A DNA stretch of 64,000 bases from Fibrobacter sp. UWH6 (GTDB taxonomy: Bacteria; Fibrobacterota; Fibrobacteria; Fibrobacterales; Fibrobacteraceae): the NCBI RefSeq assembly GCF_900142465.1, contig NZ_FRAX01000004.1, forward strand, positions 62,001-126,000. The letters are read 5' to 3'. The position numbers were made by a program, and so were the translations under genes. The notes beneath the pieces are model-generated. The model ran no database searches, was not told the DNA's origin, and worked only from the letters and a program-made list of their open reading frames with translations. Below are positions 34,608 through 39,362 of this stretch, in pieces. Position 1 is the stretch's first letter, and the number at the start of each line of letters is the position of its first letter.

Positions 34608-36008
34608 ATGAACTATTTTTCATCAAAAACATGGGGCGTAGCCGCCGTTGCGCTCTCTATGTTGGTTCTTTCGACGTCTGCAACTGCCGCAGAACGCTAT
34701 AAGGATCGCCAGTTCAAGGTCAAGAAGACTACTGACGTTAGCTTCGCTACCAAGGTGCCGCACCTCAGCTCCTATCATACCATTACGGAATCCCTGCTGA
34801 AGTACAATCAGGCAGCTTCAATTCTGAAGCAGGACCCCACGACGGTCGCCTACTTCTACAACAACGAAAATGATACCGAAAAGCGCGACCTGAAGCTGGA
34901 CCTTTATGAACCGAAGGATGACAAGGCCAAGGATCGTGCCCTGGTGATCGTGAGTCATGGTGGTGCCATGGTGGCCGGTGCCAAGGACGATTTCGAACAG
35001 AAGTCCGTGAACTATTGCGACTCCCTGGCTGCCCGCGGTTACGTGGCCGCTTCCATTGAATACCGCCTGGGCGTAACCTTGACCGGTAAGGATAAGCAGC
35101 TCAGCATCGATAGCGTTGACTTCGCCCGCGCCGTTTACCGTGGCGTTCAGGACGTTCGTGCCGCCGTTCGTTACTTCCGTGCCAACGCCGACAAGTACGG
35201 CATCAACCCCGAACGTATCTACCTCCTCGGAAATAGCGCCGGCGCAATCATCTCCCTGGAAGATGTTTATGCCCGTACCGAAGATGATTTCCCCTCTTAT
35301 ATCAAGAAGAAGGGCGCTCCTGACCTGGGTCTCCTGGATGATTACGGTTCTGAGGGAAATCCCTTTGCCAACGGTGTGGTTGCCCTGTGGGGTGCCGTTC
35401 ACAACCTGAAGATGATTGGTGACAACAAGACTCCGGTGCTCCTGATTCACGGCACCAAGGATGAAACCGTTTACTTCAAGACGGGTCGCCCCCTGAGCAA
35501 TGTGGCCAAGGTGCTGCAGAACCTGATTCCTTCTGAATTGGGTGCCACTGTGGCTTCTTATGCCTTGGATTTGCACGCTCCCACTCTGTATGGCAGCTAT
35601 GTGATTGACTCCCTGCTGACCAAGAAGAAGATTGAACACGAAACTTACTTTGTCGAAGGTGTTGCCCACGAATTCTACGATGACGATCCCAAGTACGAAA
35701 AGGAAGTGCAGAAGAGAGCCTTCGAGTTCCTTTACAAGCTGACCCAGAGCGAACCTGTGGTGGGTATCGAACGCAAGCCCATTATGCTTGCCCAGGCTTC
35801 TGCAATCCGCATGGGCGCAGGCAACATGAACTTCAGCGTTTCTCGCGGCAAGGACCTGCAGTATGCAGTTGTGGACCTTCGCGGTCGTGCAGCCATGAGC
35901 GGCAATGTTTCTGCCGGTCAGATGGTTGACCTGAGCTCCCTGAATAGCGGCGTGTATGTGCTCCGCGTGCAGGGTGAACGCGCTATCCGCTTCGGCCTGG
36001 GCAAGTAA
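34608..36008 (+). CDS. Secreted alpha/beta-hydrolase (carboxylesterase) with T9SS-like C-terminal tail
   Basis: 466 residues from ATG 34608 (RBS AGGAAGAG). A signal peptide ends near 'STSATAA'. The esterase domain has 'VIVSHGGAMVAG' (oxyanion HGG), nucleophile elbow 'LLGNSAGAI', acid in 'IHGTKDETVY' and His in 'EGVAHEFYDD'. The last 60 residues form a small beta domain ('VVDLRGRAAMSG', 'SSLNSGVYVLRVQGE'). It resembles the C-terminal sorting domains of type IX secretion substrates. An acetyl-xylan or similar cell-wall esterase exported to the surface is the likely role; substrate is inference. Confidence 0.83.
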   Translation: MNYFSSKTWGVAAVALSMLVLSTSATAAERYKDRQFKVKKTTDVSFATKVPHLSSYHTITESLLKYNQAASILKQDPTTVAYFYNNENDTEKRDLKLDLYEPKDDKAKDRALVIVSHGGAMVAGAKDDFEQKSVNYCDSLAARGYVAASIEYRLGVTLTGKDKQLSIDSVDFARAVYRGVQDVRAAVRYFRANADKYGINPERIYLLGNSAGAIISLEDVYARTEDDFPSYIKKKGAPDLGLLDDYGSEGNPFANGVVALWGAVHNLKMIGDNKTPVLLIHGTKDETVYFKTGRPLSNVAKVLQNLIPSELGATVASYALDLHAPTLYGSYVIDSLLTKKKIEHETYFVEGVAHEFYDDDPKYEKEVQKRAFEFLYKLTQSEPVVGIERKPIMLAQASAIRMGAGNMNFSVSRGKDLQYAVVDLRGRAAMSGNVSAGQMVDLSSLNSGVYVLRVQGERAIRFGLGK

Positions 36009-36085
36009 TCGGCCTGAACAAAATCAGCCCGAGTAAGTAATTGCTGCGGGCTCCCTCGGGGCTGTAGACCTCGGAATGGCGCAAA

Positions 36086-36132
36086 AAAAACGGACTAAAC
36101 TTTGCTTTGATGCAGGTTTAGTCCGTTTTGTT
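36086..36132 (+). terminator. Intrinsic terminator of the secreted hydrolase
   Basis: CGGACTAAAC (36091-36100) pairs with GTTTAGTCCG (36116-36125), extended by A/T pairs and followed by TTTTGTTTTT. Confidence 0.82.
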
Positions 36133-36191
36133 TTTATGGGTTTGATCCGCGAAAGAGTTCGTCTGACCTTTAATATTTAGGCTAAAATACT

Positions 36192-36329
36192 AAAAAATGG
36201 TCTAACCCAACAAAAATTAGGTTAGACCAAGTATCTAAGATACAGTTTTTAGGTAGGTAAATCTCAGATTATAATAGGGTGTGTTTTTTAGATAGTTATA
36301 TTACATCTACACTTTGAAAGAACATAGCC
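36192..36329 (+). repeat. 138-bp direct repeat, left copy
   Basis: Nearly identical to 37725-37862 (same length; differences cluster around 36271-36280). It starts with the hairpin TGGTCTAACC/GGTTAGACCA and also holds GTATC-TAA-GATAC. The two copies bracket the FISUMP lipoprotein gene. A plus-strand terminator-like hairpin (GCACGG/CCGTGC, 36364-36382, then T6) follows the left copy only. Confidence 0.85.
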
Positions 36330-36363
36330 TGTTTTTATTGATATTGGACAAAGATTCCCCCCT

Positions 36364-36389
36364 GCACGGTGTATCGCCGTGCCTTTTTT
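36364..36389 (+). terminator. Plus-strand terminator-like hairpin without an obvious gene
   Basis: GCACGG (36364-36369) pairs with CCGTGC (36377-36382), followed by CTTTTTT. The U-run is on the plus strand, although the adjacent gene is on the minus strand. It may end a short transcript that begins within the 138-bp repeat, or be left over from a lost gene. Confidence 0.5.
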
Positions 36390-36430
36390 GTTTAAAATTT
36401 CTTGAATTTGGCCTGGATTATGTCAGGCGG

Positions 36431-37567
36431 CTAGTAATTCTTGACGCAGCGGACAGGGAATCTGTTGAGTTCAGATTTCTGAGCAGCCCCCATTTTAACA
36501 TAAACGTCATTTACATGGACACTATAAGCAATCGTTGCGGATTCTTCTGCGGGTGTAAAGAAGTTCGTCAGCATCCAGCTGAGTTCATAGTCGCGCATGT
36601 CGAACAGCACGGACATGCCGAGCAGGTTCGCGCCGGTCTTGTCCGTTGTCCAGTTCGCCTTCGACGCCATGCTCAATCCGCCTCCCGCCGTATAGTTTTC
36701 CCACTCGTAGCCGTTCATGATGTGCCAGCCCTCCGGGCAGATGCCCTGGTGTATGCGGGTGTTGCCGCCGGTCGTATCCTTCCAGAGCACGGAATCGTAC
36801 TTCGACGATATCCCCATCGCCTCGCTCCAAGTATAGCGGCCGCCCCAGCCGTTCTCGCAGAACCACTCGTCGTTCAGCTCGCAGTACTTCTCCACCTTGC
36901 CGTCGTCCAGCCGGTGGACGCTCGAGTCCACCATCTCGCCGTAGTTCAGGTTCTGCGCGAAAACCTCGATGGAATCGTCGTCAATTATCTTCTTGTCACT
37001 ATCACGCTTGTGGAGTATCAGCGTCGTGTACTTCTGGCCGTCACGCGGGTCCGTGAACTCGCTGAGTGTGCTGTACGGGTTTTCGAATTGGCGGTCCATG
37101 TTCGGGTAAACCTTGGGCTTGGGTGGGTAAATTATCGTATCCGTTCGCCAATAGTTATCCCTACACGTCATATACGCAGTTGAATTTTCTTTTACAACTG
37201 TGTCCTTGGCGCCCTCCTCGCAACGGCGGGGCAAAAAGACGCTGCTCGACGATGCCACCCCGCTGCTGCTAGATCCCCGGTCGGTGCCGGGGATGACACT
37301 GCTGCTGGAGGCGGCACTTTCGCTCGATTTTGCGGAGCTTCCCTTGCTCGAGGAGCTATTCTTGGAAGTCTTCCCGCTGCTGGAGGCGGCGTCGAGGCCT
37401 TCGTCGTCGCTCGAGTTCACGGAAATTTCGTCGCCGCTGCTCAGGATTTCGCTAGACGAGGATTCCTTTTCCGGTTCAACGAAGCTGCTGCTGTCGTCGT
37501 CACCGCAGGCGGTAAAGCACATGGTAGCGGCAACAAGGGCAAGGGCAAAAGGTAACAGTCGATTCAT
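36431..37567 (-). CDS. FISUMP-domain lipoprotein with Ser-rich linker
   Basis: 378 residues. Lipobox 'AATMCFTACGDD' (Cys near residue 21), about 90 residues of Ser/Glu/Gly/Ala linker, then a Fibrobacter paralogous (FISUMP) domain from about residue 160. Landmarks are 'FTDPRDGQKYTTLIL', 'FAQNLNYG', 'YTWSEAMG', 'GICPEGWHIMNGYEWE' and the end 'NRFPVRCVKNY'. FISUMP proteins are numerous, surface-anchored and of unknown function. The gene is enclosed by two 138-bp direct repeats and has codons slightly richer in G+C (CGC, GTC, TCG) than its neighbours. This suggests it moved as a cassette. Confidence 0.87.
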   Translation of the reverse strand: MNRLLPFALALVAATMCFTACGDDDSSSFVEPEKESSSSEILSSGDEISVNSSDDEGLDAASSSGKTSKNSSSSKGSSAKSSESAASSSSVIPGTDRGSSSSGVASSSSVFLPRRCEEGAKDTVVKENSTAYMTCRDNYWRTDTIIYPPKPKVYPNMDRQFENPYSTLSEFTDPRDGQKYTTLILHKRDSDKKIIDDDSIEVFAQNLNYGEMVDSSVHRLDDGKVEKYCELNDEWFCENGWGGRYTWSEAMGISSKYDSVLWKDTTGGNTRIHQGICPEGWHIMNGYEWENYTAGGGLSMASKANWTTDKTGANLLGMSVLFDMRDYELSWMLTNFFTPAEESATIAYSVHVNDVYVKMGAAQKSELNRFPVRCVKNY

Positions 37568-37724
37568 TTTTTTACTCCAAAGAAAGAAAATAGAAATTGT
37601 TGATGAGGCACGGTTCGAGCGACTCGATTTTGAAGCTGTTCTTGCGAGACTTGTTCTTTTTCTTGTTGTTTTTAGGCTATGTTCTATTAGAGTGTAGGAC
37701 TGCCATTTTATGTTGAATTTACTG

Positions 37725-37862
37725 AAAAAATGGTCTAACCCAACAAAGATTAGGTTAGACCAAGTATCTAAGATACAGTTTTTAGGTAGGTAAATCTCAG
37801 TTTCTAAAAGGGTGTGTTTTTTAGATAGTTATATTACATCTACACTTTGAAAGAACATAGCC
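37725..37862 (+). repeat. 138-bp direct repeat, right copy
   Basis: See 36192-36329. This copy lies between the start of the FISUMP gene and the end of the DUF2914 gene. The interval 37568-37724 upstream of the FISUMP gene is A/T-rich with no further gene. Confidence 0.85.
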
Positions 37863-37889
37863 AATATTTATGTAGGGGAGTCAGGTTGA

Positions 37890-39362
37890 TTACTGCAGGG
37901 TATCGCGGACGAAGGTGTCTTCGGGGGTGGCGTCAAAGACCTCGAACGCACCTGCGCCAATCACGGCGCCGTTCTTGTAGGCGATTTCTACGCGGTATTT
38001 GCCGGGGGGCGCGTTCTTCTTGCGAGAGAAACTGCGGAATCCGGTTTCGCGGCCACCGTTAATGACCATGCGGCCCGAAGAGATCTTGTCGGTCAGCTTG
38101 AACTTTTCGGTGGTGGGGTCTTCGTAGTACCAGCGGTATTCTATTTCGGCCTTGAGCTTGGCGGGGGCATAAACCGAGGCCAGGAAGTAGACTTCGTTAC
38201 CTTCTTGCTTATGGACGGTGGGGGTGCCCAGGCCGATCTTTTGCAGGAAGGTGGGTTCGTCCATGTCGCAGGTGTAGGTGGCCTTGTCAAAATTCTGGCA
38301 GGCCATGTGTTGCTTTAATACCAGGGGAACAGGCGGAACCCAGTTCATGAGGTAAGCAACCACCAGCAGGATGCTGATGAGGGCGGGTGCAATCAGGACG
38401 CCCTTGGAACGGCGGGAAATCTTCCAGATGGCGGTACAGATGCCGAAGGAAAGAAGTGTAGAGAGGAAGAACCATCCGAAACCGATGCGGTGAACCACAT
38501 GGGGGATGGTGAAGTTCATGAACATGGTCCCCAGCAGGCAGAACAGCGCCAGGTTCAAGCCGAAACTTTCGTAATGCTTCTTGAGGAATTCGTTTCCGAC
38601 CAGGAGGATTGCAAGTAAAATAACGAGGATGAAGGAGGCGATGGAACCGCTGCTCTTGAAATAGCAGACCACCAGGGCGCTGAACATGCCGCCGAAGAAG
38701 AACTGCAGGGCCCAAGTGAAACGGTCCTTCCAGACGGGACTCCATTCGCGGTCCAGGAAGTGGTGCTCTACGACGATGGCGTTCTGGGGGATGGCGGTAC
38801 TTTCGTAGCCCACCTTGTCGGCCAGCTTCCCGGCGGCGTTTGCTGCGGCTCGGGCGGTAGCTCCTGCGGCGTTTGCGGCGGCATTTGCAGTTGCCTTGGC
38901 GGCAACTCCCGCGGCGTTTGCGGCTACACCTGCTGCATTTGCGGCCACTCCTGCTGCCATTTCGGCGGCCTTGCCCAGTTTTCCGGTGGGGGCGGCCTTG
39001 GCGGCAGTTGCGGGCTTGGGGGCTTCTGCCTTGATTTCGGCAGGGGGTTCAACCTTTGCTTCGGCCTTGCTGTCGGTTTTTGCCGTGCTTTTGGCGGCGG
39101 GCCTTACAGGCTGTGCGGCGGCAGCGGCTGCCAGGCGCTCCTTGGTCCATCCTTCAGGGTGTTCCAGGCGGGCAGACAGCAAAATGACCAGGATCAGGGC
39201 GCCGGTGTAGTAGGCCAGCAGAAACCACAGGTCCGAATCATCGATAGACATTCCCAGGGTAATGGAATCCCAGCCGAAACCGCCTAAAAAGGCGATTGCC
39301 GGGAAAAACTTCATGATTTTTTGAACGGAAGGCTTGTTGCGAACTTTATCTATAAATTCCAT
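37890..39362 (-). CDS. DUF2914 membrane protein with Ala-rich cytoplasmic linker
   Basis: 490 residues. Two N-terminal transmembrane segments ('FFPAIAFLGGFGW', 'LLAYYTGALILVILL') are followed by about 130 residues of Lys/Pro/Ala linker. Inside this, AAGVAANAAGVAANAAGVAAKA-type heptad repeats suggest a long helix. About six more membrane segments follow, and a C-terminal DUF2914 domain ('ASVYAPAKLKAEIEYRWYYED', 'FRSFSRKKNAPPGKYRVEI'), probably periplasmic. DUF2914 proteins are uncharacterised envelope proteins. The gene is monocistronic and diverges from proS. The Ala-rich part is compositionally biased but in frame throughout. Confidence 0.8.
   Translation of the reverse strand: MEFIDKVRNKPSVQKIMKFFPAIAFLGGFGWDSITLGMSIDDSDLWFLLAYYTGALILVILLSARLEHPEGWTKERLAAAAAAQPVRPAAKSTAKTDSKAEAKVEPPAEIKAEAPKPATAAKAAPTGKLGKAAEMAAGVAANAAGVAANAAGVAAKATANAAANAAGATARAAANAAGKLADKVGYESTAIPQNAIVVEHHFLDREWSPVWKDRFTWALQFFFGGMFSALVVCYFKSSGSIASFILVILLAILLVGNEFLKKHYESFGLNLALFCLLGTMFMNFTIPHVVHRIGFGWFFLSTLLSFGICTAIWKISRRSKGVLIAPALISILLVVAYLMNWVPPVPLVLKQHMACQNFDKATYTCDMDEPTFLQKIGLGTPTVHKQEGNEVYFLASVYAPAKLKAEIEYRWYYEDPTTEKFKLTDKISSGRMVINGGRETGFRSFSRKKNAPPGKYRVEIAYKNGAVIGAGAFEVFDATPEDTFVRDTLQ

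Follow-up and report, generated by a model that had tools for sequence, protein, structure and literature searches.

Two direct MITE-like copies with crosswise-matching 8-bp flanks enclose a FISUMP lipoprotein gene in Fibrobacter sp. UWH6, a candidate mobile unit

We examined a stretch of 64,000 nucleotides from Fibrobacter sp. UWH6 (contig NZ_FRAX01000004.1, positions 62,001 to 126,000 of the forward strand), hereafter the window, whose own numbering is used throughout. A gene for a lipoprotein of 378 aa lies on the minus strand at 36431-37567. It scores 62.4 bits against TIGR02145 (cut-off 41.65), which bears out an earlier note on this DNA that had placed it in the FISUMP family (Fib_succ_major, TIGR02145 / PF09603); its match to PF09603 falls below that profile's cut-off. 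Direct repeats border the gene at 36192-36338 and 37725-37871 (95% over an alignment of 147 nt). The second copy matches the first with 97% identity over 138 nt (E = 8e-62), which rules out chance, so that the two near-identical direct repeats described in that note are real. The hairpin it had reported in each of them, TGGTCTAACC/GGTTAGACCA, is likewise present on the plus strand at 36198-36229, with a 10-bp stem, and at 37731-37762.

The two repeats are A+T-rich (30-32% G+C). The gene had been thought richer in G+C than its neighbours, which the figures do not clearly support: it has 55.8%, against 57.4% in the DUF2914 gene and 53.9% in the esterase gene. Third-position G+C is 0.734 in the FISUMP gene, 0.705 in the DUF2914 gene, and 0.647 in the esterase gene. 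An Rfam scan of 36000-38000 listed five matches at E values of 1 or less, and each scored far under its gathering score. Between the esterase gene and the left repeat, at 36084-36133, is a strong inverted repeat (ACGGACTAAAC...GTTTAGTCCGT) bordered by A/T runs, which looks like a bidirectional terminator.

We set the limits of the repeat by aligning its copies from the same genome and from other genomes of the genus. The 138 bp previously taken as the unit proved to be part of a longer element of about 199 bp, here called M, with 23-bp imperfect terminal inverted repeats (GGCTATGTTC...GAACATAGCC); its ends, GGCTATGTTCTATTAGAGTGTAG and CTACACTTTGAAAGAACATAGCC, are imperfect inverted repeats of one another. 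Full-length copies measure 188-200 bp and contain no transposase reading frame. When 20 of the 23 end positions were tested as pairs, 92.8% of the cells over all copies were paired, and the full element folds end to end into a single long, imperfect hairpin (z -6.4), a stability that none of 200 shuffles attained. The copies of genome G029 have two pairs of the internal hairpin changed on both sides; 12 of 500 shuffles reached two such compensatory pairs, which gives modest support for conservation of the hairpin. M is thus short (the range for MITEs is 50-500 bp), noncoding, ended by inverted repeats, flanked by target duplications, and dispersed in many copies: it is a MITE-like, non-autonomous transposable element.

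Both copies in the window lie on the plus strand. The left one, M1 (36180-36329), has an intact right terminal repeat and an internally deleted left one, of which GGCTA alone is kept, while M2 (37675-37862) has both terminal inverted repeats. M2 and the copy in genome G035 share a 10-bp deletion and one base, and M1 has neither. The two M copies of G029 are sisters, identical at 193 of 199 positions.

The genome of the window (G000) holds five substantial copies and one short fragment. In collections with one representative genome per species, M occurs in 10 of 80 genomes of the genus and in 11 of 167 of the phylum, the latter belonging to 2 of 40 genera. Insertions lie in A+T-rich intergenic DNA at many places. 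A simple insertion in G035 has an exact 8-bp duplication, AATAATTA, on both sides, and one in G150 has TTTCTTTT on both sides, read from the sequence. M therefore makes 8-bp A+T-rich target duplications, although most single copies lack matching flanks of their own.

These features bear on the proposal, also made earlier, that the repeats are shared docking or regulatory units of FISUMP genes. The check for further copies beside such genes was positive: a FISUMP frame directly adjoins M in 9 of 21 loci (the window, L097, L098, L104, L105, L106, L107, L113, and L114), a count that excludes FISUMP hits at least 1.2 kb from M (L106 8233, L111). The background is 96 FISUMP domains in the 3.92 Mb of the window's genome, about one per 41 kb, from which simple arithmetic gives a chance of about 7% of finding one in a 3-kb neighbourhood; across 10 genomes, domain hits number 45-109 per genome. 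The association speaks for such a role, as does an internal hairpin kept through two compensatory pairs in the G029 copies. Against it, M has terminal inverted repeats and makes target duplications, and it also stands alone beside unrelated genes with no FISUMP neighbour (G035, G150, contig C13 of G011, and others). With five substantial M copies in the window's genome, most of its roughly 96 FISUMP domains have no M. We regard this proposal as unsupported and very improbable.

The 8-mers flanking the two window copies match crosswise. The outer target-site copies, t1 (AATATTTA), are identical at 36172-36179 and 37863-37870, and the inner ones, t2 (TGTTTTTA), are identical at 36330-36337, to the right of M1, and 37667-37674, to the left of M2, all on the plus strand. 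The order is t1-M-t2-gene-t2-M-t1 (AATATTTA-M1-TGTTTTTA ... TGTTTTTA-M2-AATATTTA), and neither copy has matching flanks of its own. A second complete case is found on contig C1 of G029, where TATTTGTT-M-ATTATGAA...FISUMP...ATTATGAA-M-TATTTGTT spans copies 2.1 kb apart. We pieced three further units together across contig ends. In G011 (C2/C26), the outer flank AAATAAAA is common and the inner flanks differ (AAATTGAA / AAAACTTA); in G032 (C46/C6), the outer flank AATTTTAT is common; in G031/G033, the inner flank TTTTGTAT is common and the outer flanks are TTAGAAAA and TTAAAAAA. The last two contig ends have 55 identical bases in common within a single FISUMP gene, and binning may have divided one genome between these two MAGs.

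At the junction, 7 of 44 same-genome left-right pairs have exactly matching 8-mers; moving the comparison outward by 1-99 bases gave a mean of 0.01 matches and a maximum of 1. The 44 pairs omit the G000 C2 fragment, the short hits on G034 C18 and G029 C4, and G150; copies with a missing or altered left end (C31, C6, G034 C1, G030 C65, G030 C67, G029 C5, G027); and copies whose right end is lost at a contig end (G032 C37, C46). The four flanking 8-mers show that the unit went in as a whole. A FISUMP gene is present in each of the five two-ended units, and the four outside the window were located through M, not through FISUMP. The gene is split by a contig break in the G011 unit, and its 5' part alone is visible in the G032 unit, with 93% DNA identity to the start of the window gene. 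The suggestion that the window holds a repeat-bounded cassette gained by recombination or transposition is therefore supported, both by the four 8-mers and by the recurrence beside FISUMP genes.

Several observations concern these units and their neighbours. The G029 cassette also has two short frames upstream of its FISUMP gene (L097:7170-7993), which we take to resemble a HEPN/MNT toxin-antitoxin pair. At L098:8028-8969 (G000 C7), a YhgA-like/Rpn nuclease gene (PF04754) adjoins M and a frameshifted FISUMP gene. Two contigs of G032 end inside M (L108:10163-10218 and L109:10068-10122), and two more break at the same place in a FISUMP linker, which shows that M and FISUMP linkers break up assemblies and conceal cassettes of this kind.

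The units, each a gene plus a site in direct orientation, could also be read as integron-like gene cassettes, with M, which folds into a single long, imperfect hairpin, as an attC-like site. Integron sites are not known to make target duplications. Single M copies do have 8-bp target duplications, and the copies end in inverted repeats at their exact tips; we give the integron reading hardly any credence.

The sequence around the enclosed gene points to tandem FISUMP arrays in the same genome. In the arrays on contigs C11 and C16 of G000, a terminator-like hairpin comes after each of the three examined FISUMP stops, then AGGGG, and then a frame with a GTG start, SKFNKKNKKSKK..NNYKIESLEPRLL, so that the order on both contigs is FISUMP-terminator-GTG-SKFNKKNKKSKK..KIESLEPRLL. 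The frame, which from its motif we presume to be LEPR-like, is a short remnant in two of the three cases, and a fourth array gene, on C16, has a different sequence downstream. The leaders and linkers of the tandem units at L167:4646-8000 (C11) and L168:4700-7250 (C16) are almost the same from unit to unit, and a short remnant of the LEPR-like N-terminus stands between the units, which suggests modular shuffling of surface-protein genes in these arrays. A self-repeat scan of 30 FISUMP loci found a second similar stretch in the window (L117) and in L118, L120, L126, L129, L140, and L144; several of these six other loci look like tandem FISUMP paralogues.

In the window, the ends of the cassette divide a LEPR-like start into two parts. 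The start half lies 3' of the FISUMP gene, where AGGGGGG is followed by TTG TCC AAT ATC AA (36338-36351, minus strand). The second half, KNNKKKNKSRKNSFKIESLEP (37612-37674, minus strand), lies 5' of the gene and reads, from t2, AAA AAC AAC AAG AAA ... AAA ATC GAG TCG CTC GAA CCG. Joined through one t2, the inner flanks read LSNINKNNKKKNKSRKNSFKIESLEP, with a TTG start; immediately 3' of the FISUMP gene, this brings back an RBS-like run, that start, and SNINKNNKKKNKSRKNSFKIESLEP, in the order seen in the arrays. The two inner flanks were thus once a single continuous sequence that was interrupted by the insertion of M, and the FISUMP unit had its two ends joined, either in a circle or by being one repeat of a tandem array. 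The gene itself is a mosaic. Its leader and two linker stretches have 92-95% DNA identity to the C11 and C16 array genes, the 5' leader and start (37429-37619, minus strand) matching them at 94% (G000:C16:19050-19242 and G000:C11:119826-120018), and the best same-genome match to its C-terminal part is the C7 gene, with 61% over residues 130-378.

Alternatively, the FISUMP gene might have been resident all along without moving, and two M copies might have inserted independently, one on each side of it. M does enter A+T-rich intergenic DNA at many places, and on G000 C7 one M alone sits beside a FISUMP gene. Independent insertions should leave t1-M-t1 and t2-M-t2, however, whereas both complete cases have swapped flanks, which refutes this explanation unless a later rearrangement or gene conversion is invoked, and the inner flanks would not be expected to rejoin into a reading frame. 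We consider it improbable.

The reading we prefer, with a probability of about 0.58, is that the segment 36172-37870 is a mobile unit of one FISUMP gene and two direct M copies, which would have formed by integration of a one-M circle at an M that was already in place. M would first have inserted into a LEPR-like start within a tandem FISUMP array, duplicating t2. Recombination between array units could then have freed a circle of one FISUMP unit and one M, and this circle would have integrated at an M in the chromosome, flanked by t1 as its own duplication, either by RecA-type recombination or by an IS26-like targeted exchange driven by a transposase. Direct M copies would allow the unit to leave by the same route, and the expected effect is that FISUMP alleles are moved between loci and species.

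A serious, though clearly less probable, alternative is composite transposition or a replicative cointegrate, in which an M-FISUMP unit was duplicated in tandem and M-FISUMP-M was inserted at t1 by a transposase acting in trans. It predicts the same four 8-mers, since both M copies keep t2, and it accounts for the exact outer 8-bp duplication, for the sister copies of G029, and for G011, whose common outer duplication with different inner flanks resembles a classical composite. The window argues otherwise, because, by their derived characters, M1 and M2 are not each other's closest kin: with the shared deletion and base linking M2 to the G035 copy and not M1, the two look like different lineages, which favours the joining of two pre-existing M copies. 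The circle and composite routes both fit G029, given its sister copies, and for G011 ordinary composite transposition fits better than a circle, because its inner flanks differ.

Neither the circle nor the composite route has a transposase candidate among the genomes searched, and the collections of one genome per species showed no circle, empty site, or strain variant, which counts against the preferred reading. The IS6-type transposase profile PF13610 had no match in 12 genomes (control matches, 5 of 14), nor did PF12762 of the IS1595 family (control matches, 1 of 14). An end-pattern search over 80 genomes found no longer element with M ends, giving M copies and one hit in G018 that has no inverted partner in the fetched stretch. 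The autonomous partner, absent from these 80 genomes, may be elsewhere; its absence weakens the case for a known MITE lineage but leaves that for MITE-like anatomy as it was. As the left end of M1 is lost, the present unit could probably leave by recombination between the M copies alone and may no longer be able to move by transposition. Of 80 genomes, 73 have the DUF2914 neighbour, and locus order is not conserved: in the fetched flanks of 29 non-self loci (30 fetched), the esterase gene occurs in one, that of G028, where it stands on the opposite side, and proS in none.

MITE-bounded composites are already known. TIME-COMPs, as presented in the available part of PMC13367494, are MITE-bounded composite elements with resistance genes; as in the window, two MITEs bound a passenger, direct orientation occurs, and outer direct repeats mark the insertion. 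The route suggested there for MITESen1 is the same: a circle of one MITE plus the gene, which integrates at a resident MITE (same part of PMC13367494). According to that text, TIMEs are Tn3-derived elements of Enterobacteriaceae plasmids with 5-6-bp repeats, whereas M makes repeats of exactly 8 bp in Fibrobacter, and TIME-COMPs carry resistance genes on plasmids, whereas contigs with M have genes of chromosomal type and the unit carries a gene for a surface lipoprotein. We therefore do not assign M to the TIMEs or the unit to the TIME-COMPs, since the repeats are 8 bp and not 5-6 bp, although the unit works like one.

The pseudo-compound transposons and translocatable units of IS26 and the IS6 family (PMC7986276, available part) are a second likeness: direct copies flank a gene, target repeats are 8 bp, and an IS26 cointegrate has the same kind of swapped 8-mers (TGTTTTTT-IS-TTATTAAT / TTATTAAT-IS-TGTTTTTT). 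IS6-family inverted repeats, in the same source, have a GG tip and cTGTt and caaa motifs. M shares with them the GG tip and a TGTT motif near the tip (GGCTATGTTC, GGCTCTGTTC), but it differs in its length of about 199 bp, its lack of a reading frame, and 23-bp imperfect ends without caaa after TGTT. Despite its 8-bp repeats, we do not file M as an IS6-family MITE, nor as an IS1595-family one, in view of the empty PF13610 and PF12762 searches. Identical MITEs also stand at both ends of Acinetobacter integrons and of blaPER-1 and are read as mobilisation in trans (PMC3934969, PMC10969869). Cargo, host, and element family are different there, and the available parts of the two papers mention no inner-flank signature.

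A literature search on the term FISUMP found nothing, and none of the papers retrieved dealt with MITEs in Fibrobacter, as judged by title and the start of the abstract. The F. succinogenes S85 genome paper, in its available part, refers insertion sequences to a supplement (PMC3079729). The literature searched holds no description of how the large FISUMP paralogue family spread. The swapped 8-mers offer a readable record of the capture of a one-gene unit and, if the reading is right, would link MITEs to surface variation in cellulose degraders.

The core M pattern was found in nine named contigs, eight labelled Fibrobacter sp. (seven horse-faeces MAG contigs and UBA1765) and one labelled Bacteroidales, also a horse-faeces MAG. 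Exact M-pattern searches of viral contigs in IMG/VR gave 0 hits, and PLSDB plasmids gave no match. M is near-identical between species: the G011 C13 copy agrees with that of MAG134 at 198 of 198 positions, and the G032 C6 copy at 197 of 198. By contrast, the DUF2914 protein of the window has about 60-80% identity to its counterparts in other genomes. Such near-identity of M beside far more diverged proteins suggests recent movement between species, among those of the horse gut, with the caveat that MAG contigs may be misbinned. On the Bacteroidales-labelled contig, M (L065:5979-6176) is identical to the G011 C13 copy at 198 of 198 positions and is accompanied by a FISUMP-like gene; this could reflect either cross-phylum transfer or misbinning. 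More broadly, hindgut Fibrobacter species might share a circulating set of surface-protein genes, as single-gene circles with one MITE that dock at resident chromosomal MITEs; a transposable element that has no enzyme would then act as an integron-like capture site for surface variation and move alleles between species. We offer this idea as speculative and more doubtful than not.

Some M copies stand in other settings. M lies about 20-50 bp upstream of the same gene, which we presume to be endoglucanase-like, at L099:5391-5560 (G000 C31), L111:6000-6157 (G030 C67), and L180:7864-8114 (G150), in three species of two genera. The right flank is TTTCTTTT every time, and the 8-bp duplication is complete in G150; M may supply or alter the promoter of this gene. 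In G150, M is preceded by genes that are presumably DNA methyltransferase-like and restriction-endonuclease-like (L180:4906-7092), and further M copies have likewise island-like surroundings. Finally, GGCTGTGTCAAG / GGCTCTGTCAAG, found at about 7840-7855 in L180, near 4770 in L168, and near 5290 in L099, could be the ends of a second short element beside M or FISUMP genes.
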